From Muribaculaceae bacterium (GTDB taxonomy: Bacteria; Bacteroidota; Bacteroidia; Bacteroidales; Muribaculaceae), in assembly GCA_022509045.1 (NCBI GenBank), contig JAFLTZ010000004.1, positions 1 to 48,212 of the forward strand: DNA of 48,212 nt. Reading direction: 5' to 3'. Below, in pieces: positions 5,422-47,116 of the stretch (position 1 is its first letter; every line of letters begins with the position of its first letter). The notes beneath the pieces are model-generated. The model was not told where the DNA came from, made no database searches, and saw only the letters and a list, made by a program, of their open reading frames with translations. The position numbers were made by a program, and so were the translations under genes.

Positions 5422-8400
5422 TTAGAAACCGAACTGAATACCAAATGTTACTTGACGCGGTAAAGCGTAAGGATATCCTAATCCTTCAGGATCGGCACCG
5501 GTATATTTTGTAATAGTAAACAGGTTTTGAGCTTGTAAATAAACTCGAGCATTACTCATGTGAAGAGTATTACGAACTTTATCGGGGAGAGTGTATCCGA
5601 GAGAAAGAGTTTTCAGACGGATAAATGAGCCATCCTCAATAATGTATTGAGACAATTCATTTTCACTATTTGAGTTGTCGATTGACGGAGCCGGGATATT
5701 TGATGAATAGTATCCGGTTTGCAAATAGTTTTCGTAGGCAGCAGCAGCTTTAAGCAATTTGGTGCCGTGATTACCAGTCCAAAGTGGGAAGAAATCAGTA
5801 TAGAATTTTGAATTGTTGTATGCATCGCGAATAATGCTATTGAAGAACAAGCTGAGGTCAAAACCTTTCCAGGTAGCACTGAGATTAAGCCCGAATTGAG
5901 CTTTTGGCAGGTCACAACCAAGCCAAGTACGGTCGCGGTCGCTGATTTCACCATCACCGTTAGTATCAACATAACGAATACGACCAACAGCAGGATTACC
6001 AAAACTTACACGATATTTTGCTTTGTATTCATCCACTTCTTCCTGAGTGCGGAATATTCCATCAGTCTTATAACCCATCCATGAGCCAAGAGGTTGTCCG
6101 ACAATACTCTTGTCAATACCATTACCTCCACCCCACGAATAATAGATGTCTTCCATAAGGTCGGACACCTTATTTTTCATGGCAGTAACATTAAGTCCTA
6201 TTTCATAGCTAAAGTCCTTGTTAACTGTCTGACGCCAGTTTGCAGTGATTTCAACACCATTATTAGTCATAGAACCACCATTGTACCAGCAGTATCCACC
6301 TTCACCAATTGTTGCTATATATGGTTTTTCAACAAGCATATCGTTTGTTTTCTTATAGAAATAATCAAACGAGAAAGAGAGTCGGTTGTTTAGGAAAGAT
6401 GCATCAAGTCCGACGTTAGTCTGATAAGTTTTTTCCCATTTAAGGTCGGGATTTGTAGTTCTTGAACGGAGAGCACCCGGAGAAAGAGTGTTGCCACCGC
6501 CAATAGCGTATCCTGCACGGTCGAGATCCATTGCATATTTTGCATAGAAAGCATCGTTTGCAATGATATCATTACCGTTAATACCATACGCACCGCGAAT
6601 CTTAAGGCTGCTTAACCAATCGCGAGTATCTTCCATGAATTTTTCTTCGGAAATACGCCAACCGGCAGAGATTGACGGGAACCAATCGAAATTGTGGTCG
6701 GGCGACAAACGAGATGAAGCATCACGACGGATGGTAAATGATAAGAGATACTTGTTGTCGAAAGTGTAGTTAACCTTCCCGAAGAAAGAGAACATAGAAT
6801 AGTTAGAAGCTCCTGAACCGGTATTTTTGTATTCGGTAGCATTTCCGAGATAGAGGTAATTAGGGTCTTCCAATTCAAGACCTTTACCTTCACCAAACAT
6901 ATCTTCGAAGTGATTACGTTTAGCCTCGATACCGATTAGAGCCATAAGAGAGTTTTTACCAAAATCAATGTTATATTGAGCAGTATTAGTCCAAACCCAA
7001 TCGACAGTTTTACTTGAGTATTGATAAAGATTATTAGTATTGTCACGAAGGTTGGCCGGCGTGAAAATCTTATCCATACCATTGTGATAGTTTATACCGA
7101 AGTTGGTTTTTACGATAAGATTCTTAATCGGCTCGATAGAAAGATAAGCATTACCGAACACACGCCAATATTCGCGCTTGTTGATAGCTTCTTCGTCAAT
7201 CTGGCGCATGATATTAGGTGTATCGTTAAGACCATAAGCGACCTGATCGTTGTAATTTCCTTCAGAGTCGTAAACAGTTCTTGCAGGGTGCATTTTAATA
7301 GCATTTTCTTCAATGCCACCCGGAGCGTTATGCTGACGCCACCAATTGACAGCAACACTTCCACCTGCGCGCAAGCGATTGTTCAAAAAACCATAATCGG
7401 TGCTGAAGCGAGAGTTTGCTTTTTGGAAATCAGTACCTTTAATAATACCGTCATGGTCAAGTAAACTGATAGAAAGTGAAGATGAACCATTTTCGTCGCC
7501 TTTAGACAGACCTATGCTATAAGTCTGCATCAAAGCGGTGCGGTGAATTTCTTTCTCCCAATCGGTATTTTGAGGATTAACTATAACGCCGTTGAGGTTA
7601 GTATAGGGCTGTAATTTGGGAGTAGCACCACTTCCATACAATTCAGAAGAAGGAGTCGTGCCATAAGAATATTTGTAAGCGGACCAATATACCTCACCCC
7701 ATTGGTCGGCATTCAACATACTCAAACCGCTCTGGTATGTTTGAAGTGTGAGAGTAGCATCAAATGTCACATGACATTCACCCTTATTGGCGCGTTTGGT
7801 AGTAATAATAATAACGCCGTTGGCTGCCTGCGCACCGTAGATAGAAGCAGAAGCAGCATCTTTAAGAACTTGTATTGACTCAATGTCGTTACTGTTAAGG
7901 ATAGTACCCGGATTTTCACGCGTCATTATACCATCGATAACGTAAAGAGGTCCATTTGCCTCGCCACGGAAAGAAGACGCACCACGAATAGAGGTAGATG
8001 TACTAAGTCCACCAGGAGTACCATCAGTGGTGATATTCATACCTGCCACACGTCCTTGAAGAGCCTGAATAACATTACCTGTAGGTGTATCTGCCACATC
8101 TTTCATTTTTACTACAGAAACAGAACCTGTGAGGTCTGATTTCTTTTCAGCAGAATAACCAACCACAATCACTTCATCGAGGAGTGCGGATTCTTCTTCC
8201 AATTCAATAGTCATTTCAGGCTCAGCCTTAACAGTAAGTGGCACGAAACCTATATAAGAAACAACAAGATTAGAACCGGCAGGAACAGAAATGACGAAAT
8301 TGCCGTCGAAATCGGTAGCAGCTCCGATAGTGCCGTCGGTCTCACATATCACACTTGCACCAATCAAGGGTTCGGCATCCGTCTTGGAAATGACAGTGCC

Positions 8401-8481
8401 GTGCACCGTGATTTTTTCTTGTGCCATTGCCGTGATTGCCATAATCACGAACATAAATGCAGTTAATAATTGCTTTTTCAT
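5422..8481 (-). CDS. SusC/RagA-family TonB-linked outer-membrane transporter
   Basis: A 1019-residue protein with a signal peptide (MKKQLLTAFMFVIMAITAMA), then a carboxypeptidase-regulatory-like domain (about 22-105; KITVHGTVISKTDAEPLIGA) and a plug domain with the SusC signature LDEVIVVGYSAEKKSDLTGS. The plug continues through PLYVIDGIMTR and IESIQVLKDAASASIYGAQA, and the barrel ends in QVTFGIQFGF. It imports oligosaccharides across the outer membrane with TonB energy and pairs with the SusD 19 bp downstream. The likely substrate is a fructan oligosaccharide, inferred from the neighbouring GH32, fructokinase and sensor genes. A -7 element (8513-8520) and a motif shared with the GH32 promoter region (8552-8571) lie upstream. 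Confidence 0.95.
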   Translation of the reverse strand: MKKQLLTAFMFVIMAITAMAQEKITVHGTVISKTDAEPLIGASVICETDGTIGAATDFDGNFVISVPAGSNLVVSYIGFVPLTVKAEPEMTIELEEESALLDEVIVVGYSAEKKSDLTGSVSVVKMKDVADTPTGNVIQALQGRVAGMNITTDGTPGGLSTSTSIRGASSFRGEANGPLYVIDGIMTRENPGTILNSNDIESIQVLKDAASASIYGAQAANGVIIITTKRANKGECHVTFDATLTLQTYQSGLSMLNADQWGEVYWSAYKYSYGTTPSSELYGSGATPKLQPYTNLNGVIVNPQNTDWEKEIHRTALMQTYSIGLSKGDENGSSSLSISLLDHDGIIKGTDFQKANSRFSTDYGFLNNRLRAGGSVAVNWWRQHNAPGGIEENAIKMHPARTVYDSEGNYNDQVAYGLNDTPNIMRQIDEEAINKREYWRVFGNAYLSIEPIKNLIVKTNFGINYHNGMDKIFTPANLRDNTNNLYQYSSKTVDWVWTNTAQYNIDFGKNSLMALIGIEAKRNHFEDMFGEGKGLELEDPNYLYLGNATEYKNTGSGASNYSMFSFFGKVNYTFDNKYLLSFTIRRDASSRLSPDHNFDWFPSISAGWRISEEKFMEDTRDWLSSLKIRGAYGINGNDIIANDAFYAKYAMDLDRAGYAIGGGNTLSPGALRSRTTNPDLKWEKTYQTNVGLDASFLNNRLSFSFDYFYKKTNDMLVEKPYIATIGEGGYCWYNGGSMTNNGVEITANWRQTVNKDFSYEIGLNVTAMKNKVSDLMEDIYYSWGGGNGIDKSIVGQPLGSWMGYKTDGIFRTQEEVDEYKAKYRVSFGNPAVGRIRYVDTNGDGEISDRDRTWLGCDLPKAQFGLNLSATWKGFDLSLFFNSIIRDAYNNSKFYTDFFPLWTGNHGTKLLKAAAAYENYLQTGYYSSNIPAPSIDNSNSENELSQYIIEDGSFIRLKTLSLGYTLPDKVRNTLHMSNARVYLQAQNLFTITKYTGADPEGLGYPYALPRQVTFGIQFGF

Positions 8482-8512
8482 GTTAAATAACTAAATTAAA
8501 ATTTATCTGGCA

Positions 8513-8520
8513 CAAAGATA
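8513..8520 (-). promoter_or_regulatory. -7 promoter element of susC
   Basis: Minus-strand TATCTTTG matches TAnnTTTG. It lies about 32 bp upstream of the susC start. No good -33 TTTG is present at the expected spacing, which fits a promoter that depends on an activator. Confidence 0.6.
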
Positions 8521-8551
8521 TTGCACGTATAAAACGAATGTTGATAAGATT

Positions 8552-8619
8552 TGTAGCATGAAATATAAAAAATGTGCTGTTGCACTATTTTTCATACAAT
8601 AGGCAACATTTTTGCAACA
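8552..8619. promoter_or_regulatory. Candidate operator region upstream of susC
   Basis: The first 20 bases (8552-8571; TGTAGCAT, four variable bases, TATAAAAA) match 17 of 20 positions of 11457-11476 upstream of the GH32 gene. Farther upstream of susC there is TGTTGC at 8578-8583 and two GCAACA copies at 8603-8608 and 8614-8619, spaced 11 bp apart. AraC-type regulators often bind direct repeats about one helical turn apart. Binding by the adjacent hybrid sensor is inferred. Confidence 0.4.
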
Positions 8620-8664
8620 AAAAACACCGGGGGATTCTGTTTTACATCAATGTAGCGAGCGAAA

Positions 8665-11391
8665 TCAATGAGAAATCTTATCGCGAAGGTCGGAAGGCGT
8701 TTCATTATACACCTCACGATAACAACGAGTAAAGTAAGCCGGAGTTGAAAATCCCACCTCATAAGCAATTTCACTGATAGTTTTTTCAGTGGAAGTGAGC
8801 AATTCACGCGCTTTTTTCAAACGAATATCTCTGATTATCTCCACAGGAGAGTAATTTGTGAGGGCTTTAATTTTACGATAAAGCTGTGAGCGTCCAAGTC
8901 CCAAATCAGACGCAAGCATATCTACATTCAAATCAGGATCGCTCATTTTATTTTTTACCAATCCGACGAATTTCGAATAAAACTCACTCTCCATATCAGT
9001 GGAACCGACAACCGGAACAGCAGTCCTTTGGGAAATCGGATGGCTCTTATCGCGCTGAGACCATAAGTCGTAAATGCGATGACGATTCTCCATCAAGCTG
9101 CGGCAACGCGCTTTCAACACATTACTATTAAATGGTTTCGACACATATCCATCGGCACCACTTTCATAACCGCTTGCCCTTTGTTCGTCAAGCGAACACG
9201 CCGTGAGTAGCAATACCGGTATGTGAGAAGTCGATGTTTCTTTCTTGATAAACCTACAGCATTCCAGTCCGTCCATACCAGGCATCATCACATCGCATAT
9301 TATCAAATCCGGGATATACTTGGCAGCCATTTTGACACCGTCCTTGCCATTGGAAGCGAAAACCACATTGTATTCTTCACACATAATTTCTCCCACAAGT
9401 TGCCTAATGTCAAGATTATCGTCAATCACAAGCAACAAAGGCTTATCGGGGTCAATTTTATATTCCACACTTTCTTCAACATCAAGCTCTGCCTCAATAT
9501 CTTCAGTGGTAACATACCGTTCAAAAACCGAGGCAACTTCGCCCTCTACGTGTTCTATAGGAATAGATACCACAAATTCAGTGCCTACGTTTAGCTCGCT
9601 TTCAACCGATATTGTTCCTCCATGCATTTCCACAAACGCCTTAGCAAGCGACAAGCCTATACCTGAACCTTTGGGATGAACTTTATCAACCTGATAGAAA
9701 CGGTCGAAAATATTTCCTAAATCCTCGGCACTAATACCCTGTCCGTTATCTTTAACTGAAATAATGAATGACTCATCCTGTTTAAAACACTTAAATTCGA
9801 TGTTACCATTTTCGGGCGTATATTTAAAGGCGTTCGACATCAGATTGAAGAATACTCGTTCTATCTTTTCCACATCGAGAGCAATCGAAAACTTGTCGGG
9901 AAGATTCACTTCTGTGGAGAGCCTCATATTATGGCGTTGTGCCAATTCTACAAAAGATTCCGACCAATCAAGAATTATGGGAGCAATATTCACTTCGGAA
10001 AGATGGAGTCCTAATTTGCCATTTTCATATTTACGGAAATCGAGAATTTCATTAATAAGGCGTCGCAGAATTTTGACATTCTTGTTTGCTATATTTATAA
10101 GTTTTCGTTGTTTGTTATCAAGATTTTCAGAAGCAGCAAGTTGTTCTACGGGCTCCGAAATAAGAGTGAGCGGTGTACGCAAATCATGTGAAACATTTGT
10201 AAAGAACATCAGTTTCGACTGAGTGATTTCACTAAGCTGCTCATTAAGAGCGCGTTCGGTGTCACGTTGTTCTTCAAGCATTTTATTTTGACGTAAAATC
10301 TCTGCATGATAGCGTCGTCGTTGCCAGAAAGCACGCAGCAGTAAAAAGATAAAAGCAAAGAGTACAACAAGGAAAGCTATCACCACATAAAAAAGTGTGG
10401 TTTGCGCTGAGTATTGTGTCCAATACTCGTCGAGTTGTTTTTTCAGAATATATATTCGCTCTGTATTTTCAACCAACGACACATTTTGACGAAGAATTAT
10501 ATCGGCATTTGAAGCATCAACAGCAGGAGAAGGCGGCAGAATCGTTATTCTATCGTATTGTTCATTTTTAAGTATAGCCAAAGCCGTTTTTATCAGCCTA
10601 TTCCCTTCGGAGGGGTAAATGAAAGTGGCATCAATAATTCCATCGGAAACAGCTTTTATACCGACTTCAGGGACTGCATCTATACCAATAATTTTCACTT
10701 CTCTACCGTGCTTTTTGGCAACATCCGATGCAGCAATAGCCATTCGGTCGTTATGTGCATATATGACATCAACATCAACATGCTCGTTTAAAATGGAATC
10801 CATGGCAATTGCAGCATCATCATAATTCCAATTACCGTACCCGAGTCCAACCATTTTAAATCCATAACGTTCGGCAGTTTCAACAAATCCTTTATGGCGT
10901 GCAATTGCCGGAGTCGAACCCGGTAATCCATGAATTTCTATTACTTTGGCACCGGCTCCTATTATATTATGTGTGTATTCAGCAGCAGCAATCCCAATTC
11001 CCTCATCATCTACACCTTGCAACGCAGTGAAAGACTCCCCATTGATATTTCTGTCAAAGATAATCACCGGAATTCCTAAATCATATACTTCCTTTACAAT
11101 CGGGGTAATAGCATCTGCTTCATTTGGAGCAACCAAAATGATATCGAATCCATTATCGCAAAAATAACGGATGTCCTCAATTTGTTTCGTATTGTCATCG
11201 TTGGCCGACCTAATTTCAACAACAGCTTCCGGATGAAATATTATTTCCCGCAATATTTCATCATTCATTCTACGACGCCAGTCATCATCACTACATTGCG
11301 ACACCGCTATACGGTATGTCACTTGCTGCTTGCATCCGGATACCACAAACAGCATCATTATACTCATTAAATAAAATAATTTCCTCATCAA
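8665..11391 (-). CDS. Hybrid two-component system sensor/regulator with periplasmic sugar-binding domain
   Basis: A 908-residue protein combining sensor and regulator. It has a signal sequence with SGC at 18-20, a periplasmic-binding-protein domain of the ribose/LacI type (about 25-300), one membrane segment (about 333-355), a HisKA domain with His402 in NVSHDLRTPLTL, and an ATPase domain (N box NLMSNAFKYT; G boxes DNGQGIS and GSGIGLSLAK). A receiver domain with acceptor Asp700 (IICDVMMPGMDG) and a C-terminal AraC-type DNA-binding domain (about 800-905) follow. The architecture matches BT1754 of Bacteroides thetaiotaomicron, whose periplasmic domain binds fructose. It sits between susC and the divergent GH32 operon and most likely activates both. 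Confidence 0.93.
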   Translation of the reverse strand: MMRKLFYLMSIMMLFVVSGCKQQVTYRIAVSQCSDDDWRRRMNDEILREIIFHPEAVVEIRSANDDNTKQIEDIRYFCDNGFDIILVAPNEADAITPIVKEVYDLGIPVIIFDRNINGESFTALQGVDDEGIGIAAAEYTHNIIGAGAKVIEIHGLPGSTPAIARHKGFVETAERYGFKMVGLGYGNWNYDDAAIAMDSILNEHVDVDVIYAHNDRMAIAASDVAKKHGREVKIIGIDAVPEVGIKAVSDGIIDATFIYPSEGNRLIKTALAILKNEQYDRITILPPSPAVDASNADIILRQNVSLVENTERIYILKKQLDEYWTQYSAQTTLFYVVIAFLVVLFAFIFLLLRAFWQRRRYHAEILRQNKMLEEQRDTERALNEQLSEITQSKLMFFTNVSHDLRTPLTLISEPVEQLAASENLDNKQRKLINIANKNVKILRRLINEILDFRKYENGKLGLHLSEVNIAPIILDWSESFVELAQRHNMRLSTEVNLPDKFSIALDVEKIERVFFNLMSNAFKYTPENGNIEFKCFKQDESFIISVKDNGQGISAEDLGNIFDRFYQVDKVHPKGSGIGLSLAKAFVEMHGGTISVESELNVGTEFVVSIPIEHVEGEVASVFERYVTTEDIEAELDVEESVEYKIDPDKPLLLVIDDNLDIRQLVGEIMCEEYNVVFASNGKDGVKMAAKYIPDLIICDVMMPGMDGLECCRFIKKETSTSHIPVLLLTACSLDEQRASGYESGADGYVSKPFNSNVLKARCRSLMENRHRIYDLWSQRDKSHPISQRTAVPVVGSTDMESEFYSKFVGLVKNKMSDPDLNVDMLASDLGLGRSQLYRKIKALTNYSPVEIIRDIRLKKARELLTSTEKTISEIAYEVGFSTPAYFTRCYREVYNETPSDLRDKISH

Positions 11392-11430
11392 TCAATATCT
11401 TTCGGTTGGTGGGTGTAATTTATTATTAAG

Positions 11431-11438
11431 CAAATTTA
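11431..11438 (-). promoter_or_regulatory. -7 promoter element of the hybrid sensor gene
   Basis: Minus-strand TAAATTTG matches TAnnTTTG and lies 40 bp upstream of the sensor start. No clear -33 box is seen. Confidence 0.45.
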
Positions 11439-11456
11439 ATCAATAATTTATGAAAA

Positions 11457-11476
11457 TGTAGCATCGAGTATAAAAA
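11457..11476. promoter_or_regulatory. Copy of the 20-bp motif found upstream of susC
   Basis: TGTAGCAT, four variable bases, TATAAAAA, identical at 17 of 20 positions to 8552-8571. It lies in the 190-bp region between the divergent sensor and GH32 genes and may be the operator for GH32, for autoregulation, or both. Confidence 0.45.
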
Positions 11477-11543
11477 TTTATTCAATTCATCAAATTTAAT
11501 ACTTAATGCACCAAATTTTATCTCGGTTATTTTTCAAAGACAG

Positions 11544-11551
11544 TAAATTTG
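11544..11551 (+). promoter_or_regulatory. -7 promoter element of the GH32 operon
   Basis: TAAATTTG matches TAnnTTTG and lies about 30 bp upstream of the GH32 ATG. The -33 region is poor, consistent with an activated promoter. Confidence 0.55.
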
Positions 11552-11581
11552 TGTCAAACAAAATAAATTAATGTGATAATT

Positions 11582-13429
11582 ATGAACAAAAAATTGCAAT
11601 TACTGATCACGGTCCTATTGGTTTGCGGAATGTCAATACATGCGTATGCCAATACACATAATGGTGTCAGTGTAGAACACCTCAGCGCAGACAACACATT
11701 TGTGCGCGTTGTGGGCGAAGGCAAGTATCTGATGCTCCCGGTACAGGAATCAAATACTGAAGATGCCACAATAAATGTAATAGTAAACGGCAATATCGAT
11801 CAAACTATATACGTTCGCCTCGCGAAATCAAAAGTAGATTATTTGATGCCTTTCGACTTAAGTCGCTATTCAGGCAAAAAGGTTATACTTGACATTAACA
11901 CCAAACAAGGAAGAATGACAGTGCGTGATGTAAAGATGGATGTATGCTGGAATAACTTCGCATTGTCGGATTCTTTTGACATAACCAATAGAGAAAAATA
12001 TCGTCCGAAATTTCACCATACACCGGAGTATGGATGGATGAATGACCCGAATGGCATGTTCTACAAAGATGGCAAATGGCATCTTTACTATCAATGGAAC
12101 CCCTACGGCTCAAAGTGGCAAAATATGACATGGGGACATTCATCATCTGAAGACTTGGTTAACTGGGAACATCATCCAACGGCTATCGAGCCGAATGGCT
12201 TAGGTGCTGCATTTAGCGGAAGTGCTGCGATTGACCCGGAAGGGAGTGCCGGATTTGGGGAAAATGCAGTAGTAGCAATGTACACTACTGCCGGAACCAA
12301 TCAGACACAAAGTCTTGCATGGAGCAACGATAATGGTAACACCTTTAATATTTATCCCGGTAATCCGGTTATCACTTTAGAAAGTGAAGCTCGCGACCCG
12401 AACATGTTTTGGAATTCGGAAACAAAACTTTGGACTCTCGTACTTGCACATGCGTTAGACCGTGAAATACTCTTTTTCACATCGCCCGATATGAAAGAAT
12501 GGACTCTTGCAAGTTCATTCGGCAAAGGTCTCGGCGCTCAAGGTGGTGTGTGGGAATGTCCCGATTTATTCGAACTTCCGATTGAAGGCACAAATCAAAA
12601 AAAATGGGTCTTAATCTGCAATCTTAACCCCGGTGGTCCATTTGGAGGAAGTGCCACGCAATATTTTGTAGGCAATTTCAATGGAAAAACATTTAAAGCC
12701 GATACCGACGTGAATGGTATTATACCGATCAAATGGTTGGATTACGGAAAGGACAACTATGCAAATGTTAGCTGGAGCGATGCCCCGGATGGCAGACGAG
12801 TAATAATAGGATGGATGAGTAATTGGCAGTATGCTTCCGAAATTCCAACAAAACAATTCAGAAGTGCAAATACATTGCCTCGCGACTTATCACTGTTCAA
12901 AGCAAAAGATGGCGAACTCTATGTGGCGTCACGTCCTTGTAAGGAAATTGATGCGCTTCGCACGAATATCGTTGAAAACATCAGTCAACAGACTGTGTCG
13001 CAACGTAGTAAAACTATTCATTTGCCAAAAGAAAACAACGGAGTGTGCGAGATTACAATGAAAGTCGATGCCCGTTCTGCAAAAACATTCTCATTAATAC
13101 TGTCAAATGAGAGAGACGAAAAAGTAAAGATGACATATAGTCCGACTACAGATAAATTGTCGTTCGACAGAACGGAGAGCGGCTTGTCGGAGTTCAGTGA
13201 TGATTTTCCTGCAATCACGGTAGCTCCAATGTACTCTGCCAACTCTATTTTCGGTCTCAGAATATTCATCGATACATCGAGTATAGAAGTGTTTGAAGAA
13301 TCGGGAAAATCTGTAATGACAAACCTTGTGTTCCCGACAACGCCCTACACATCACTCACATTAACTGCCGATGGCGGAAACGTAAAAGTGTCAAATCTAA
13401 AAATATATTCTCTAAAAACAATAAAATAA
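11582..13429 (+). CDS. Glycoside hydrolase family 32 fructanase (levanase/inulinase/sucrose type)
   Basis: From the ATG at 11582 the product is 615 residues; a GTG nine bases upstream is in frame but less likely. A type I signal peptide (MNKKLQLLITVLL, AYA cleavage site) without a proper lipobox places it in the periplasm. An N-terminal beta-rich domain (about 28-130) precedes the five-bladed propeller. The GH32 motifs are intact: WMNDPNG with nucleophile Asp155, RDP with Asp272, and WECPDLF with acid/base Glu325. A C-terminal beta-sandwich (about 470-610) completes the fold. It would hydrolyse beta-fructosidic bonds and release fructose. Linkage preference (levan, inulin or sucrose) cannot be judged. 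It heads a three-gene operon with the permease and fructokinase. Confidence 0.95.
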   Translation: MNKKLQLLITVLLVCGMSIHAYANTHNGVSVEHLSADNTFVRVVGEGKYLMLPVQESNTEDATINVIVNGNIDQTIYVRLAKSKVDYLMPFDLSRYSGKKVILDINTKQGRMTVRDVKMDVCWNNFALSDSFDITNREKYRPKFHHTPEYGWMNDPNGMFYKDGKWHLYYQWNPYGSKWQNMTWGHSSSEDLVNWEHHPTAIEPNGLGAAFSGSAAIDPEGSAGFGENAVVAMYTTAGTNQTQSLAWSNDNGNTFNIYPGNPVITLESEARDPNMFWNSETKLWTLVLAHALDREILFFTSPDMKEWTLASSFGKGLGAQGGVWECPDLFELPIEGTNQKKWVLICNLNPGGPFGGSATQYFVGNFNGKTFKADTDVNGIIPIKWLDYGKDNYANVSWSDAPDGRRVIIGWMSNWQYASEIPTKQFRSANTLPRDLSLFKAKDGELYVASRPCKEIDALRTNIVENISQQTVSQRSKTIHLPKENNGVCEITMKVDARSAKTFSLILSNERDEKVKMTYSPTTDKLSFDRTESGLSEFSDDFPAITVAPMYSANSIFGLRIFIDTSSIEVFEESGKSVMTNLVFPTTPYTSLTLTADGGNVKVSNLKIYSLKTIK

Positions 13430-13436
13430 TCGAATC

Positions 13437-14621
13437 ATGGATGCATATTCATCAACTTCAAAAAAGACATCGTTGATGCAAATTATCCCGGTAATGCTCT
13501 GCTTTTTTGCAATGGGCTTCGTTGACCTTGTGGGAACTGCATCAAACTATGTAAAACAGGATCTAAACCTGACAGATGCTCAGGCAAACCTATTTCCTTC
13601 ACTGGTATTTTTCTGGTTCCTAATCTTTTCAGTCCCTACCGGGGTACTTATGAACAAGATTGGACGAAAGAAAACAGTATTGCTGAGTTTAGTAGTAACC
13701 GCAGTGTCGTTGATTATTCCTATCACAGGCAATGGCTACATGACTATGCTTGCCGCATTCTCGTTATTGGGCATTGGTAATGCCATCATGCAAACATCTC
13801 TTAATCCGCTTGTTACAAATCTGATAAGCGGTGATAAGTTGGCTTCCACTCTTACATTCGGACAATTTGTAAAGGCGATAGCTTCATTCTTAGCTCCTAT
13901 TATTGCTGCATGGGGAGCTACTACATATTTGCCCACTTTCGGTCTCAGTTGGAAAGTATTATTTGTAATATATGCCATAATCTGCTTCCTGTCTATATCG
14001 CTGCTCGGCGCCACCCCGATTCAAGAAGAAAAACAAGACAAGGCTTCCGGCATTATCGCTTCGCTGAAATTATTAGGACGTCCGTTTATTCTATTGTGTT
14101 TTCTCGGCATAATGTGCCACGTTGGTATTGATGTCGGCACAAATACTACAGCTCCTAAGATAATTATGGAACGTGTTGGCTTACCACTTGAAGAAGCTAT
14201 ATTTGCTACCAGTGTCTATTTTATCTTCCGCACAATAGGTTGCTTTCTGGGAGCTTTTATTCTAAGATTCGTGCCTGCCAAATCATTTTTTGCAATAAGT
14301 ATCATCATGATGCTTGCTGCCATGATTATGCTATATGCCTGCGATTCACTCTTATCCCTTTACATAGGTATTGGCATGATAGGATTTGGAAACTCAAATG
14401 TGTTCCCAATTATATTTTCTCAAGCTCTTATCGCTGCACCAAAAGAGAAAAATGAAGTTTCCGGACTGATGATTATGGGTCTATTTGGAGGTACTGTGTT
14501 CCCATTGGCTATGGGCTTCGCAGCTGATGCTATCGGTCAAATAGGTGCCGTGGCTGTAATGACAATCGGCGTGGCATATCTTCTTTACTATACTCTTAAA
14601 ATCAAAAAAATAAACGCATAA
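13437..14621 (+). CDS. Sugar MFS permease (FucP-like; probable fructose importer)
   Basis: A 394-residue protein with about 12 membrane segments. The first half shows the FucP/glucose-galactose-type pattern (FFAMGFVDLVGTASNYVKQD) and an MFS loop motif (GVLMNKIGRKKTV). It starts 7 bp after the GH32 stop and is followed 12 bp later by fructokinase. In the B. thetaiotaomicron fructan locus an MFS monosaccharide permease holds the same place. It would import fructose released in the periplasm, probably with protons. Substrate is inferred from context. Confidence 0.88.
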   Translation: MDAYSSTSKKTSLMQIIPVMLCFFAMGFVDLVGTASNYVKQDLNLTDAQANLFPSLVFFWFLIFSVPTGVLMNKIGRKKTVLLSLVVTAVSLIIPITGNGYMTMLAAFSLLGIGNAIMQTSLNPLVTNLISGDKLASTLTFGQFVKAIASFLAPIIAAWGATTYLPTFGLSWKVLFVIYAIICFLSISLLGATPIQEEKQDKASGIIASLKLLGRPFILLCFLGIMCHVGIDVGTNTTAPKIIMERVGLPLEEAIFATSVYFIFRTIGCFLGAFILRFVPAKSFFAISIIMMLAAMIMLYACDSLLSLYIGIGMIGFGNSNVFPIIFSQALIAAPKEKNEVSGLMIMGLFGGTVFPLAMGFAADAIGQIGAVAVMTIGVAYLLYYTLKIKKINA

Positions 14622-14633
14622 AATATTAGATAT

Positions 14634-15512
14634 ATGAACAATATAGTAGTCGGAATGGGCGAAGCTCTATGGGATGTTTTACCCGAAGGAAAGAAACTCG
14701 GTGGTGCACCTGCAAATTTTGCTTATCATGTATCGCAATTCGGATTAGACAGTTGCGCCATAAGTGCTATTGGCGATGACGTATTGGGAGCGGAACTTCT
14801 CGAAAATTTTGCTCAAAAAAACATAAAACATATCATTGAAACAGTTCCGTATCCTACAGGAACCGTACAAGTAGAAATTGATCAAGCAGGTGTCCCACAA
14901 TATGAAATTAAAGAAAACGTAGCATGGGACAACATTCCTCTTACCGATAAACTCAAAAACCTTGCCCATAACACCAAAGCAATATGTTTCGGCTCACTCG
15001 CACAACGTAACATCGTATCGCGAAACACTATAAATACATTCCTGGATGAAATGCCAAAGGACAATGACCGCTTGGTCGTATTTGATGTTAATCTTCGGCA
15101 GGGATTTTATAACAAAGATATTCTTTGTAATTCGATGGAACGTTGTAACGTGCTTAAAATAAACGATGAGGAACTTGTAACTGTGAGTCGGATGTTTGGC
15201 TATCCGGGTATTGATTTGCAAGATAAGTGCTGGATTCTTCTCGGCAAATATAATCTCAAAATGCTCATTCTCACCTGCGGTATAAACGGAAGCTACGTAT
15301 TTACACCCGGTAATGTGTCGTTCCAACCTACTCCGAAAGTAGATGTTGCCGATACTGTAGGAGCCGGAGATTCGTTTACGGCCGCGTTTATAGCTTGCAT
15401 TCTCAAAGGGAACAGTGTTGCAGATGCTCATAAAAAAGCAGTTGAAGTTTCTGCATATGTTTGCACTCAACAAGGCGCAATGCCTGTTCTCCCACCGGAA
15501 CTAACAAAATAG
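14634..15512 (+). CDS. Fructokinase, PfkB (ribokinase) family
   Basis: A 292-residue PfkB-family sugar kinase of typical length. The N-terminal signature is visible (KKLGGAPANFAYHVSQFG, substrate-binding region), as is the C-terminal signature DTVGAGDSFTAAFIA with the catalytic aspartate in GAGD. It phosphorylates fructose with ATP in the cytoplasm and feeds glycolysis. It is the last gene of the GH32-permease-kinase operon and is followed by a terminator at 15548-15580. Fructose is the likeliest substrate given the operon. Confidence 0.92.
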   Translation: MNNIVVGMGEALWDVLPEGKKLGGAPANFAYHVSQFGLDSCAISAIGDDVLGAELLENFAQKNIKHIIETVPYPTGTVQVEIDQAGVPQYEIKENVAWDNIPLTDKLKNLAHNTKAICFGSLAQRNIVSRNTINTFLDEMPKDNDRLVVFDVNLRQGFYNKDILCNSMERCNVLKINDEELVTVSRMFGYPGIDLQDKCWILLGKYNLKMLILTCGINGSYVFTPGNVSFQPTPKVDVADTVGAGDSFTAAFIACILKGNSVADAHKKAVEVSAYVCTQQGAMPVLPPELTK

Positions 15513-15547
15513 ATTAACCTCTAACCTACTATATTCACTTAAAATGA

Positions 15548-15580
15548 GTGCCGGACAGAATAATTGAAGGTGTCCGGCAC
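15548..15580 (+). terminator. Stem-loop terminator after fructokinase
   Basis: A perfect 10-bp inverted repeat (GTGCCGGACA at 15548-15557, complement at 15571-15580) with a 13-base loop. The downstream side is only moderately T-rich, so termination strength is uncertain. Confidence 0.65.
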
Positions 15581-15653
15581 TTGCTTGTTGAATCCGCAGT
15601 AAGTTAAAGTTTGTTAAAAGTTATAGTAATCTATACCCCTTTAAAAGGCAACT

Positions 15654-15685
15654 ATTGCACAGCGGTGCAAAAATAACTATATTTG
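15654..15685 (+). promoter_or_regulatory. Promoter of the rimP-nusA-infB operon
   Basis: TATATTTG at 15678-15685 matches TAnnTTTG, with an ATTG about 20 bp upstream (15654-15657) as an imperfect -33 box. Transcription would start near 15692, just before the leader stem-loop. Confidence 0.6.
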
Positions 15686-15703
15686 CACTGTAAAACAGCA
15701 TCG

Positions 15704-15731
15704 GAGGGAGCGCAGGCTCCCTCGATTTTTT
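15704..15731 (+). terminator. Leader stem-loop with U-tract upstream of rimP (possible attenuator)
   Basis: GAGGGAGC (15704-15711) pairs with GCTCCCTC (15716-15723) around a 4-base loop and is followed by GATTTTTT. It lies between the predicted transcription start and the rimP ATG at 15745, so it could end transcription before the operon. In E. coli the nusA operon is under NusA feedback; similar attenuation here is inferred. Confidence 0.6.
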
Positions 15732-15744
15732 ATTATACAAAAAA

Positions 15745-16215
15745 ATGATTGATAAAAATGATATAATTACTGCCGTAGAGCACGCTATTCATGGCACAGC
15801 GCTATTTCTTGTGGACGTAGCGGTAAGCAAGGATAATGTAGTGACGGTGGAAGTGGATGCAATTACCGGGAATGTGGCAATTGATGATTGCGTGGCTATT
15901 ACCAGGGCCGTATATGCCGAGGTTGATCGCGACAAAGAGGACTATGAGCTTGAAGTTGGATCTTCCGGGCTCACATCTCCATTTAAGGTAAAAGCACAAT
16001 ACGAAAAAAATATTGGCAATGAGGTGGAGGTGCTTGCCATTGATGGAAAAAAACATAAAGGCGTACTAAGTGCAGTCACCAATGATGATTTTACCATTAT
16101 GGAAACTCGCAAACTTAAACCGGAAGGCGCAAAACGTCCTATAATGGTAGAACAGCCTCAGACATTTAAATACAGTGAAACAAAACAAACTAAATATCTA
16201 ATTCAGTTTAAATAG
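15745..16215 (+). CDS. rimP: Ribosome maturation factor RimP
   Basis: A 156-residue protein of the usual length for RimP, which is needed for 30S subunit assembly. The N-terminal domain carries LEVGSSGLTSPFK, matching the RimP signature (E-V-S-S-P-G in many homologues), and a small C-terminal SH3-like domain follows (KKHKGVLSAVTNDDFTI). It is first in the conserved order rimP-nusA-infB, 11 bp before nusA. The identification rests on motif, length and gene order. Confidence 0.93.
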   Translation: MIDKNDIITAVEHAIHGTALFLVDVAVSKDNVVTVEVDAITGNVAIDDCVAITRAVYAEVDRDKEDYELEVGSSGLTSPFKVKAQYEKNIGNEVEVLAIDGKKHKGVLSAVTNDDFTIMETRKLKPEGAKRPIMVEQPQTFKYSETKQTKYLIQFK

Positions 16216-16226
16216 ACCAAAATATT

Positions 16227-17489
16227 ATGGCAAAAAAGCAAGAACCGATAGGGTTGGTAGATAGTTTTTCAGAATTTAAAGAACTGAAAAATATTGATAA
16301 AACTACGATGATTAGCGTGCTCGAAGAATCTTTTAGAAGCGTGCTTTCAAAGATGTTTGGCTCCGATGAAAATTTTGATGTTATTATGAATCCTGACAAA
16401 GGAGACTGCGAAATATATCAGAATCTCACCGTAGTGCCTGATGGCGAGGTTTCCGACCCGAATAAACAAATAAGTATTAGCGACGCTCATAATGATGCCG
16501 ACAATCCTGACCCGGATTGTGAAGTGGGTGAAGATCATATCAAGAAAATAGATTTTGCCAAATTCGGTCGTCGCGCCATTCTGAATTTGCGACAGACTCT
16601 TGCATCGAAAATACTCGACTTGCAGAAAGATGCTATATACACCAAATTCAAGGAAATGGAAGGCGAACTCATCACAGGTGAAGTATATCAAACATGGAAA
16701 CGTGAAGTACTCCTTCTCGATGAAGACAAGAACGAATTGATATTGCCACGCGACCAACAAATTCCTTCGGATAATTATCGCAAAGGAGAGACTATTCGTG
16801 CTGTGATTGAGAGCGTTGATAATAAAAATAACAACCCTAAAATCATCGTATCGCGTACCAGCGATAATTTCCTGCGCCGTCTTTTTGAACTTGAGGTTCC
16901 GGAAGTTCACGATGGTTTAATTCCTATTAGAGCCGTGGCTCGCATCCCTGGCGAAAGAGCTAAAATTGCAGTAGAGTCGTATGACGACCGCATCGACCCG
17001 GTAGGCGCATGTGTGGGAGTTAAAGGCGCTCGTATCCACGGTATCGTACGCGAATTGCGTAATGAAAATATCGATGTAATTCCTTGGACAAACAATCCTC
17101 AATTGCTCATACAGCGAGCTCTTAGCCCTGCACGTATTTCTTCTATTCGCCTTAACGAAGAAGAAAAGCACGCAGAGGTATTTCTACGTCCCGAAGAAGT
17201 TTCGTTGGCTATCGGTAAGGGTGGTTTAAATATCAAATTAGCTATGAAGCTAACCGGATATCAAATAGATGTATATCGCGACCTTGAGGAGGCGGAAGAT
17301 GATATCTACATTGATGAATTCCGCGACGAAATTGAACCTTGGATTATTGAAGCATTAAAGGATTTGGGGTGTGCCACAGCCCGTGCAGTGCTTAATACTC
17401 CGAGAGAACTTCTTATCGAAAAAGCCGACCTCGAAGAAAGTACGGTAGATGAAATACTCCGAATCCTCAAAGCCGAATTTGAAGATTAA
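16227..17489 (+). CDS. nusA: Transcription termination/antitermination factor NusA
   Basis: A 420-residue protein with the NusA domain order: N-terminal RNA-polymerase-binding domain (about 1-140), S1 domain (about 150-215; ITGEVYQTWKREVLLLD), and tandem KH domains (about 220-360) with KIAVESYDDRIDPVGACVG and EVSLAIGKGGLNIKLA. It lacks the acidic C-terminal repeats of E. coli NusA, but a short helical tail (about 375-420; CATARAVLNTPRELL) remains, as in many Bacteroidetes. The N-terminal domain has an acidic insertion around 80-110 (DPNKQISISDAHNDADN). It sits between rimP and infB. Confidence 0.96.
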   Translation: MAKKQEPIGLVDSFSEFKELKNIDKTTMISVLEESFRSVLSKMFGSDENFDVIMNPDKGDCEIYQNLTVVPDGEVSDPNKQISISDAHNDADNPDPDCEVGEDHIKKIDFAKFGRRAILNLRQTLASKILDLQKDAIYTKFKEMEGELITGEVYQTWKREVLLLDEDKNELILPRDQQIPSDNYRKGETIRAVIESVDNKNNNPKIIVSRTSDNFLRRLFELEVPEVHDGLIPIRAVARIPGERAKIAVESYDDRIDPVGACVGVKGARIHGIVRELRNENIDVIPWTNNPQLLIQRALSPARISSIRLNEEEKHAEVFLRPEEVSLAIGKGGLNIKLAMKLTGYQIDVYRDLEEAEDDIYIDEFRDEIEPWIIEALKDLGCATARAVLNTPRELLIEKADLEESTVDEILRILKAEFED

Positions 17490-43527: not shown

Positions 43528-44202
43528 TTATATATCCGTTGCCAACGCTTGCCACAATTTATCATCCGGCACAGGGGCTGTCACATCCACTGTCTCCTTC
43601 GACACCGGATGTACAAACTTAACGTTGCGTGCTAATAAACTTATGCTCCCGTCCGGGTTACTCCGCTTGGCTCCATATTTCAAGTCTCCATTTATGGGAC
43701 ACCCTATAGCGGCCAGTTGCACTCTTATTTGATGTTTTCTGCCAGTCAGCAATTCAACCTCTATTAAATTATAATTGTCACTTTTAGCGATTACCTTATA
43801 TCGAAGCACCGCTTTTTGGCTACCAGGCTTAGGCTCAAGGTGTGCATACGATTTATTATTCCGTTCTGTTGTAGTTATGTAGTGTGTGAGTAAATCGCTT
43901 TCTTTTTCCGGACAATCTTTTGTAATAGCCCAATATGTTTTGTGGACGTCTCCATTTCTAAACATATCGTTGAGGCGACTGAGTGCTTTTGAAGTCTTGG
44001 CAAAAACCACGACTCCTCGCACCGGGCGGTCAAGTCGGTGTACAACTCCGCAAAACACATTCCCGGGCTTGGCATATTTTTCCTTTATCCATGCCTTCAC
44101 TATTTCGCTTAATGGTCGGTCTCCGGTTTTATCCCCTTGAACTATTTCTCCTGATTCTTTATTTACTACTATTATATGATTATCCTCGTATAATACTTCC
44201 AT
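43528..44202 (-). CDS. RluA-family pseudouridine synthase
   Basis: A 224-residue enzyme without an S4 domain. The catalytic motif is VVHRLDRPVRGVVVFAKT with Asp58, and the C-terminal motif GRKHQIRVQLAAIGCPINGD is present. It converts uridine to pseudouridine in rRNA or tRNA; the target base is not known. A -7-like element lies at 44234-44241 (minus). It is the last ordinary housekeeping gene before the accessory-looking end of the window. Confidence 0.93.
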   Translation of the reverse strand: MEVLYEDNHIIVVNKESGEIVQGDKTGDRPLSEIVKAWIKEKYAKPGNVFCGVVHRLDRPVRGVVVFAKTSKALSRLNDMFRNGDVHKTYWAITKDCPEKESDLLTHYITTTERNNKSYAHLEPKPGSQKAVLRYKVIAKSDNYNLIEVELLTGRKHQIRVQLAAIGCPINGDLKYGAKRSNPDGSISLLARNVKFVHPVSKETVDVTAPVPDDKLWQALATDI

Positions 44203-44347: not shown

Positions 44348-44378
44348 TTGACTTTTAGCAAATATTATTGTATCTTTG
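44348..44378 (+). promoter_or_regulatory. Strong promoter of the capsid-protein operon
   Basis: TTGACT (44348-44353), 17 bp, TATCTTTG (44371-44378). Transcription would start near 44385, about 28 bases before the first ATG. It is among the best promoter matches in the window. Confidence 0.65.
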
Positions 44379-44412
44379 CATCAAAAATCTTATCATCTTA
44401 ATCTTTTTTATT

Positions 44413-44655
44413 ATGAATACTACTGACAACCACCCACTGCAAACCAACGATGTAAGCCAATCCGACTTGTTGGCTCAAATCGAAGATTTGAAAATCACAA
44501 TGGCTATTAAGGAGGAAGATGCATATCTTCGAGGGCGAAATGATTGTATAGAGCAATATTTTTCACAAATGAAATCACAATCTCAATTCCACAACAAGCA
44601 CAAATCACAATCATTGCATGTTCTTGATTCCGTCTCAAAAAGCGTATGGGACTAA
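44413..44655 (+). CDS. Small 80-residue protein preceding the capsid gene
   Basis: From the ATG at 44413 the product is 80 residues; an upstream ATG at 44368 is rejected because it overlaps the promoter's -7 element. It is hydrophilic, without signal peptide, and residues about 16-52 (SQSDLLAQIEDLKITMAIKE and onward) look helical and may form a coiled coil. A Lys/His/Gln/Ser-rich stretch follows, ending in VSKSVWD. It is co-transcribed with the SU10-like capsid gene 75 bp downstream, so it could be a scaffold remnant, a decoration protein or a cargo protein. I recognise no family. Confidence 0.65.
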   Translation: MNTTDNHPLQTNDVSQSDLLAQIEDLKITMAIKEEDAYLRGRNDCIEQYFSQMKSQSQFHNKHKSQSLHVLDSVSKSVWD

Positions 44656-44730
44656 GACAACCAATCTTATTTTAACCTGATACCGTGAATACACAATCTT
44701 TATATATTCTATTTAATTAAATCATTATTT

Positions 44731-46077
44731 ATGGAAAATGCAGAAAACATTTCAACTGCTGCAATTGCAGCTCTTAACAGCTCAGATTCATCTTCGGCCG
44801 ACACCTCAATTATTGATGGAACAGATGGCGGGAAACATGTAGTGGATGGTCCTCTTTCCACCGATATTGTGAATGAGAACACCGACATTCTGCTCAATGA
44901 AATTGACTCGCGGATTGTAAAAATCCGACCAATGGCAACACCGCTCGACCAAATATCGCGCATTGCCGGCAGCAAGCGAGCCGGCGGCATGGTGGTAGAT
45001 TTTTATTCCGTGGATACAAAACCTACCGTTGCGAAAATTAAAACTGATTTCGATGGCAACGGCACATGTGATGGAGATAATGATGTAATGCGTTCTATTA
45101 TCAACACCACAAATAACGCACTTTTTGAACCCACAGAAACCATTCTTGTACGTGGAGTGAAAGGTTATAATGCCGATGGCACTCCATCCGATTCTGACCT
45201 CGTACTTTATGTCCTTGCTAAAACCGATGATGGCAAACTTATTGTCACCGGTATCAATGGTGCTTTTTCTGCATCAGGCAATTATCCGGGAGCCATCCCG
45301 CCTCTTTCTAAAAACACACAACTTATTCGTATGGGACGTGCCGCCTCAGAACTTGACGTCCAAACTTCTCAGTTTGAATCTTTGCCGGTTAAAGCTCAAA
45401 ATTTCTGTCAGATATTCAAGATGCAGATTGAACAAAGCACATTGCAGAAGATTGCCAACAAAAAAGTGGGATGGAACTTTTCCGACCAAGAGGAAGCCGC
45501 TATATATGATATGCGACTCGGTATGGAAAAAAATTTCCTTTTCGGCATCAAGCGTAAGATTTATAACCCTATCAAGCGTGAAACGGTTATGTTTACCGGA
45601 GGTATCTGGAACCAAGCAGGTAAAGACTTTGTGATTAACCCGGCAAAATTCACTGCCGATACATTGGTGGAAATGATGAGAGAAGCATTTACAGGTAACG
45701 CCGGTGGCAAACGTAAAATCCTAATTGCCGGTTCAAACCTTATTGAACGAATCAATAAACTCGAAACCACAAAAGTAATTGCGGCTACCGAGACTTTTGT
45801 CAAATGGGGTATTGATTTCACAGAACTGCGTTCAAAGTTCGGTAAACTATATGTATTACTTTCTGAAATTTTCGATGAATGTGGCATGGCCGATTGCGGT
45901 ATGATTATTGACCCTGATTATATTCAGAAATATAGTCACATCCCGTTCAGCACCGAGCCTCTCAACCTAAAGGCTGCTGGAATTCGCAACACCGATGCCA
46001 TTGTGCTCACAGAAGCATCATGCCTTACCTTGCGTTATCCGAAGGCACATATGCGTATTACCACTGCAACGGCTTAA
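44731..46077 (+). CDS. SU10/HK97-fold major capsid protein-like protein (isolated)
   Basis: A 448-residue protein. A Ser/Thr/Asp-rich N-terminal arm (1-50) precedes a region resembling the SU10-type major capsid family (DUF5309/SU10_MCP): ATPLDQISRIAGSKRAGG, then LPVKAQNFCQIFKMQIEQST, then DMRLGMEKNFLFGIKRKIYN. The C-terminal half (KILIAGSNLIERINKLE; GMIIDPDYIQKYSHIPFSTE) matches the same family by eye. No portal, terminase, protease or tail gene is present anywhere else in the window. Base composition is like that of its neighbours, so transfer, if any, is not recent. It may be a phage remnant or a domesticated shell protein. Confidence 0.75.
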   Translation: MENAENISTAAIAALNSSDSSSADTSIIDGTDGGKHVVDGPLSTDIVNENTDILLNEIDSRIVKIRPMATPLDQISRIAGSKRAGGMVVDFYSVDTKPTVAKIKTDFDGNGTCDGDNDVMRSIINTTNNALFEPTETILVRGVKGYNADGTPSDSDLVLYVLAKTDDGKLIVTGINGAFSASGNYPGAIPPLSKNTQLIRMGRAASELDVQTSQFESLPVKAQNFCQIFKMQIEQSTLQKIANKKVGWNFSDQEEAAIYDMRLGMEKNFLFGIKRKIYNPIKRETVMFTGGIWNQAGKDFVINPAKFTADTLVEMMREAFTGNAGGKRKILIAGSNLIERINKLETTKVIAATETFVKWGIDFTELRSKFGKLYVLLSEIFDECGMADCGMIIDPDYIQKYSHIPFSTEPLNLKAAGIRNTDAIVLTEASCLTLRYPKAHMRITTATA

Positions 46078-46099
46078 ACCTTACAACTTGTCAGTAAAA

Positions 46100-46130
46100 A
46101 AATGGACTGCACTGATGGTGCAGTCCATTT
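46100..46130. terminator. Bidirectional terminator after the capsid gene
   Basis: A perfect 13-bp stem (46100-46112 with 46118-46130) and 5-base loop, A-rich before and T-rich after. It sits between the convergent capsid and lipoprotein genes. Confidence 0.85.
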
Positions 46131-46147
46131 CAATTACAATAGAAACA

Positions 46148-47116
46148 TTAATCTTCGTCTTTCACAAGATTAAACTTGGTCGATATTTCTTTCTGTTCAA
46201 TTGCTTGACGGAGGTTGAAGCGACGTGATTGTGGCAAATATCCTGGTTTTTCACATTTCACTTCTATCTGAATATTACCTGAATTTTCAAAAGTTAAGCC
46301 TCTTATATCAAACGATTCGGTTGATTCATACGGAGTTGTACCCAAATATGCGGCATTCGTGTTTTTCACATCCGGCGTTGATGAAACTACACGCCACGAT
46401 ATATCAGCGCCTGCCGGACGCGATTCCACATACCAGCGAATAATAGTATGTTCCAATGCTGTGTTGCCATCTCCGGTAACTTTGCGGGTAGGTTCCTGCT
46501 CAGCACGTTTATGGGCCTTTAAATAACCTGCAATATTAACCCAATCCACTGATTTCAACGCTTCAGAATATGCCTTATCCAATTTCTTTGCCTCCGGGAC
46601 AGTTGCGTCTGTGGTTACATATCTGCCTCGAGCATTTTGCCGGATAAGCTCTTTGTTATCAGGATCACTTAAAGTATATTCCATATCTACAACTGTAGCT
46701 GATGAGTTATCGCTGCGATACGATATTTTAAACGTTTTCACATTCACGCGCAATGTATAGTCATTACTCACATCACTGCCCACATTAATACCCATCGAAC
46801 GTACGTACGATGTTATTGAATTCTTAACAAAATCATTTACCGATGGATCTACAATTACCATCCCCTTTTCAACTGTTGCCCGGACAGCTTTGCTTGCCTC
46901 TGATGCATCTATGAGAGTTTGCGCATTTACATTTGCGCTTGTATATATTGTCAGCCCGTGTGTAAGATCTGAGAAATGGTTATCCGACGTAGCGCTACAA
47001 GTGAGATCGACACGTATAGTGCTTGGGGTAAGTGGGAGCAGTGGCACTCGCTGTACTCCACATGATGAGAATAATGTTACAACGGAAATTAGAATAAATT
47101 TTACAATTGTTTTCAT
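46148..47116 (-). CDS. Lipoprotein with a PEGA-like C-terminal domain
   Basis: A 322-residue lipoprotein (signal peptide, lipobox FSSC). The middle (about 30-210) has a pattern seen in YajG-like lipoproteins (GMVIVDPSVNDFVKNSITSY, then DYTLRVNVKTFKISY), which is a weak resemblance. The C-terminal part (about 230-300) carries SRPAGADISW and AYLGTTPYESTESFDIRGL, which fits a PEGA-type surface domain. It follows the smaller lipoprotein gene by 11 bp. Function is unknown. Confidence 0.72.
   Translation of the reverse strand: MKTIVKFILISVVTLFSSCGVQRVPLLPLTPSTIRVDLTCSATSDNHFSDLTHGLTIYTSANVNAQTLIDASEASKAVRATVEKGMVIVDPSVNDFVKNSITSYVRSMGINVGSDVSNDYTLRVNVKTFKISYRSDNSSATVVDMEYTLSDPDNKELIRQNARGRYVTTDATVPEAKKLDKAYSEALKSVDWVNIAGYLKAHKRAEQEPTRKVTGDGNTALEHTIIRWYVESRPAGADISWRVVSSTPDVKNTNAAYLGTTPYESTESFDIRGLTFENSGNIQIEVKCEKPGYLPQSRRFNLRQAIEQKEISTKFNLVKDED

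Follow-up and report, generated by a model that had tools for sequence, protein, structure and literature searches.

A podovirus-type capsid gene of Muribaculaceae belongs to a dispersed set of domesticated phage genes that may encode a gene transfer agent

The window, a 48,212-nucleotide stretch of a Muribaculaceae contig (GenBank assembly GCA_022509045.1, contig JAFLTZ010000004.1), carries a gene for a phage-type major capsid protein (MCP) among host genes (Table 1). A first-pass annotation had described the product as a complete SU10-type capsid protein, which is borne out by its full open reading frame and by matches to Pfam SU10_MCP (E = 3.4e-52) and to PHROGs phrog_26635 (E = 1.8e-93) and phrog_1328, "major head protein" (E = 1.8e-14). 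The profile search returned phage capsid families only: no Pfam family besides SU10_MCP matched, and no encapsulin family was recovered by sequence. The HK97 fold suggested at first pass stands in the predicted structure, as the AlphaFold model (pLDDT 78.6) matched the capsid proteins of phages VP1, crAss001, SU10, and HK97, as well as encapsulins. The perfect terminator said to close the gene was confirmed as a stem-loop with a folding energy of -23 to -25 kcal/mol. Its T-run lies on the minus strand, and it therefore probably serves both convergent genes. The strong promoter claimed ahead of MCP fared less well. A Bacteroidetes -7 box match and a TTGACT element are present, but the -7 motif occurs 71 times across the window, so the match is compatible with a promoter without being proof of one.

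Table 1. Features of the capsid locus in the window. The nature of the two flanking genes was read from sequence alone.
Feature	Position	Strand	Basis
RluA-like flanking gene	43528-44202		
Promoter-like site (TTGACT at 44348, one TATCTTTG at 44371-44378)	44348-44378	+	Consensus match only (Bacteroidetes -7 type, TAnnTTTG)
Shortened phage scaffold protein, 80 aa, keeping the C-terminus ..YLRGRN..(I)E...SVWD	44413-44655	+	Profile match
MCP, 448 aa, SU10_MCP family, HK97 fold	44731-46077	+	Pfam, PHROGs, predicted structure
Stem-loop, perfect 13-bp stem, probable bidirectional terminator	46100-46130	.	Sequence and fold
Lipoprotein-like flanking gene, convergent with MCP	46148-47116		

The small protein encoded upstream of MCP had been proposed as either a scaffold or a cargo. 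A profile built solely from the MCP-upstream proteins of other genomes matched it (E = 4e-7) and also matched the scaffolds of related phages (E = 6e-12 to 2e-5). Those scaffolds are 250 to 275 aa long and have a C-terminal "RGRN ... SxWD" signature in common with the upstream proteins. By profile match and signature, the protein is thus a remnant of a phage scaffold, truncated with its conserved C-terminus kept, and a scaffold-type protein precedes MCP in 75 of 80 related genomes. The cargo role was ruled out, since the scaffold profile recognizes both this protein and the phage scaffolds.

MCP had been called isolated, and within the window no further phage gene was noticed around it. The isolation is local, however: further particle genes sit on separate contigs of this genome. 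The gene for the terminase large subunit (TerL), which is intact, lies on contig C6 directly upstream of rpsL-rpsG-fusA, and genes for a podovirus-type tail nozzle and an adaptor lie on contig C73 between ruvC- and dnaE-like genes. Neither a portal nor a protein of about 140 aa that recurs in relatives was found in this 137-contig assembly. A first search with MCP gave matches in 36 of 60 genomes, nearly all in the family of the window; of the 24 genomes sampled from the order's other families, two matched, one with a full phage (G054) and one nearest to Barnesiella (G056). In many genomes the gene order around MCP is scaffold, capsid, adaptor, portal. Portal (phrog_156/P22_portal) and terminase (phrog_2) are present mostly as one copy in nearly all genomes, commonly at sites away from MCP. 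Because Pfam alone gave nothing above the cutoff for the family's terminase, PHROGs and our own alignments were used for this gene. Often adjoining the terminase is a protein of about 830 aa, whose structural model had tail proteins of Pa223, SU10, crAss001, P22, and T7 as best solved matches (Z = 17 to 23) and which is predicted to be the podovirus nozzle. Of 38 genomes (G056, G054, and 36 family members), 36 have the nozzle; in the 37 genomes other than G054, the adaptor was found in 33 and the ~140-aa protein in 34. The ~140-aa protein contains two "APxFYVSxxxA"-like repeats, and in phages L060 and L191 its gene immediately precedes, on the same strand, that of the terminase; from this position in phages, our best guess is a candidate small terminase.

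An encapsulin-like nanocompartment had been raised as a role for the capsid; some other host particle free of DNA would be a reading of the same kind. Encapsulins are likewise host-encoded HK97-fold shells and are among the structural matches, and the MCP locus of the window genome, like that of the genomes closest to it, consists of the scaffold remnant and MCP only. Encapsulins lack terminase, portal, and tail, whereas the Muribaculaceae capsid matches SU10_MCP alone in Pfam and the same genomes retain single-copy terminase, portal, adaptor, and nozzle genes. A nanocompartment is disfavored because it needs none of these four, which a DNA-packaging, DNA-delivering particle does need; we consider it, or another DNA-free particle, most improbable.

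To define prevalence, we counted genes in 225 family genomes that were at least 90% complete. MCP was present in 209, terminase in 213, and portal in 215 (93 to 96%), usually as a single open-framed copy, and comparison of the absence lists placed all three together in 196. At the capsid locus we found no contiguous phage genome; single genes or short operons stand amid host genes. The survey of gene order in relatives put MCP overwhelmingly outside phage clusters, although full phages with homologous, clearly distinct genes do exist. In the single-contig 3.3-Mb genome G191, MCP (1893618), portal (1358443), and TerL (936896) are 420 to 535 kb apart. In G169, MCP and portal lie together at 180 to 183 kb, and nozzle and TerL (the latter at 2731 kb) lie 2.5 Mb away. 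Genome G021 has nozzle, terminase, scaffold, capsid, adaptor, portal, and the ~140-aa gene contiguously, which looks like an unsplit core. G025 is missing MCP, TerL, portal, and adaptor along with the ~140-aa gene; a shortened nozzle is all that is left, as though the genes decayed jointly.

The genus g30 has a compact cluster of seven genes (L059 in G029, positions 7894 to 15264; L272 in G136, positions 9919 to 17369): the ~140-aa gene, scaffold, capsid, a small gene, adaptor, terminase, and a portal of 505 to 506 aa. Its capsid falls together with those of phages from G002 and G012. The cluster may have been domesticated separately from the dispersed set, in a second event in which the portal was truncated in parallel.

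Relatives of MCP were found in 335 stretches of GTDB r220 genomes, compared to 6 in 2.9 million viral contigs, and the bacterial relatives belong to Muribaculaceae and Barnesiella. Four of the viral-contig matches (L192 to L195) have a host-type gene order. Another, L191 (27.5 kb; IMGVR 2681813420), looks like a true provirus; its MCP, at 59% identity, comes closest to the window capsid among the true-phage relatives found here, and the provirus also carries homologous terminase, scaffold, adaptor, and ~140-aa genes, which makes it useful as an outgroup. The MCPs of Bacteroides phages BF1-TP2, BS-TP4, and BKO1-TP3 have 40 to 41% identity to the window protein, and the first two of these phages also carry homologous portal, terminase, adaptor, ~140-aa, and nozzle genes. 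In contrast to the Muribaculaceae set, these three phages and the provirus have contiguous genes and encode fibers and endolysins. The portals of BF1-TP2 and BS-TP4 and the scaffold of L191 are full length, whereas their Muribaculaceae counterparts are shortened.

The MCP, portal, and TerL trees recovered same-genus pairs and the split of the window's clade from the rest. They shared 5, 9, and 4 clades, respectively, with the rpoB tree (permuted maxima of 3, 2, and 3). The dispersed portals and that of G056 formed one clade (bootstrap of 100) apart from every phage. The MCP and TerL trees supported a grouping of the dispersed set weakly, and the MCP tree placed provirus L191 next to G056. Distances correlated with those of rpoB at an r of 0.42 for TerL, 0.09 for MCP, and 0.19 for portal, the latter two not significantly (Mantel test). 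Vertical descent is therefore likely at the level of genera and major clades; because MCP and portal correlate only weakly with rpoB, genes may also have passed between genera.

The reading frame was open across the match in all 86 MCP loci checked. The dN/dS ratio of MCP was 0.02 to 0.26 in the closest pairs and larger in distant pairs, probably due to saturation. The particle genes are kept as host genes under purifying selection. The host ownership of the capsid gene suggested at first pass thus holds, and the gene is kept by selection; the simpler option offered beside it, a phage remnant kept by chance, is refuted by the intact frames and the purifying selection. Chance remnants and recurrent integration of related prophages, taken together, are very unlikely. 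Related intact phages exist (L191, L109, and L110), the gene trees agree only partly with rpoB, and one genus has the compact second cluster type (L059 and L272), but neither process sits well with the 93 to 96% prevalence in mostly one copy, the open frames with low dN/dS in close pairs, the unlinked positions among housekeeping genes, or the single portal clade separate from phages.

In TerL, the residues that we read as the ATPase motif (K107 A R Q. G.. T115, and E237) and as the nuclease (D459, D468, E517, D614, and D615) were identical in 30 of 30 aligned sequences, including that of the window genome. In the dispersed set, the portal measures about 425 to 540 aa, compared to 651 to 667 aa in related phages: the C-terminal ~180 residues are gone, with no trace downstream of the shortened portals. 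The portal of G056 is still 714 aa long. The lost part, which in P22 is the barrel, would gauge a full head. Truncation of portal and scaffold is also what dominant-negative proteins might show, and altered structural proteins could serve against phages by coassembling with, or jamming, the particles of related podoviruses still infecting the family. Homologous full phages do occur in the same genomes (L057 and L060) and, at ~40% identity, in Bacteroides. Even so, such a use is unlikely given the invariant catalytic residues of the terminase, the retention of a complete head-to-nozzle set that interference by one protein would not need, and the low identity to the phage proteins. The amino acid carbon content of the three genes was in each case slightly lower in the host set (4.85, 4.95, and 5.01) than in phages (4.88, 5.15, and 5.12), which are too few for the comparison to be weighed.

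In several genomes, the ~140-aa gene at its own locus is followed by one for a lipoprotein that carries a membrane anchor at its C terminus. Single-protein spanins have this layout, and we call the product spanin-like. A mechanical scan found this layout in 3 of 66 open reading frames just downstream of the ~140-aa gene and in 10 of 4,970 elsewhere; two further genes were judged spanin-like by eye, giving about five genomes in all. We found no lysis module common to all genomes (spanin-like genes in about five, an amidase in one) and no common tail fibers. No replication, integration, or lysogeny family recurs next to the loci, as judged from recurring neighbor families.

The set thus consists of MCP, scaffold remnant, adaptor, portal, nozzle, TerL, and the ~140-aa protein, mostly single-copy and open-framed. 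It derives from a tailed phage, with capsid, portal, packaging motor, and tail genes all identified, and it is spread over several unlinked loci among housekeeping genes. Domestication of these phage particle genes we regard as virtually certain. Our main reading is that Muribaculaceae (and Barnesiella) inherited an ancient, domesticated podovirus and keep it as host genes, with MCP and the scaffold remnant at one of its loci, and that it works as a multilocus gene transfer agent (GTA); to this we give a probability of roughly 0.7. The GTA function is held less firmly than domestication because packaging and transfer are steps that we infer. In such an agent, the scaffold C-terminus would nucleate a small MCP shell on the portal, and the terminase, possibly with the ~140-aa protein as its small subunit and without a phage genome to recognize, would fill the shell with stretches of the producing cell's chromosome. 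Adaptor and nozzle would seal the head and form a short tail. Lysis would occur in a minority of cells, perhaps by means of the spanin-like protein that several genomes encode next to the putative small terminase, and the particles would inject host DNA into kin.

Known GTAs offer close parallels. The RcGTA-type agents of Alphaproteobacteria (Rhodogtaviriformidae) and the Bartonella GTA also have phage-derived head, portal, terminase, and tail genes inherited vertically as host genes at several unlinked loci (PMC9662315, PMC11841831), five in the case of RcGTA (PMC9662315). The Muribaculaceae set differs in its podovirus origin (SU10_MCP capsid, P22-like portal, and nozzle), in its phylum, and in being known from genes alone. 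FpGTA I of Faecalibacterium likewise occurs in gut commensals and comprises terminase, portal, scaffold, and capsid without phage replication genes, but it is a single 10.5-kb operon of Bacillota with evidence for packaging, in contrast to a dispersed set in Bacteroidota (PMC12946183). The characterized GTAs listed in that work include none from Bacteroidota, and prophage-driven lateral transduction is reported there for Bacteroides (PMC12946183). Our search of the open-access literature, with subscription papers and preprints mostly outside its scope, turned up no description of a GTA from Bacteroidota or Muribaculaceae. Similarity does not reveal GTAs from one phylum to another, and how common they truly are is an open question (PMC11841831). 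That we are dealing with a podovirus-origin GTA in nearly the whole family, possibly the first in Bacteroidota, accompanied by an independent compact-cluster domestication in g30 whose portal is also shortened, seems to us slightly better than an even bet.

Muribaculaceae are dominant in the mouse gut (PMC6381624). If the GTA reading is true, this family-wide, multilocus system would supply a large new comparative data set, add a GTA whose virion type differs from those known, and offer a genetic means by which genes could be exchanged in the gut. It also suggests a route of recognition: a "lone" capsid gene calls for a search of the same genome for an unlinked terminase and portal.

Several minor features were seen along the way. 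Many related capsid proteins of hosts (e.g., L032, L033, and L035) and phages (L057, L058, and L191) have a hydrophobic N-terminal segment, sometimes lipobox-like (LSGC), which the window capsid lacks. Related phages L109, L110, and L057 have a gene for a rhomboid-like membrane protein that separates the ~140-aa gene from the terminase. Downstream of portal and the ~140-aa gene, G006 alone has an amidase near the portal (Amidase_2; L082, positions 6164 to 6724, minus strand; E = 1.7e-11), which may be an endolysin. Beside the terminase of G056 (L089, positions 8469 to 11997), three genes (208, 104, and 864 aa) resemble those for internal virion proteins, and no relatives of them occurred in the fetched phages or loci. 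Finally, a conserved protein of ~160 to 200 aa (families c10/k7) follows the ~140-aa gene and the spanin-like protein (L286, L287, L294, and L297), and in other genomes it is found after the portal or the terminase.
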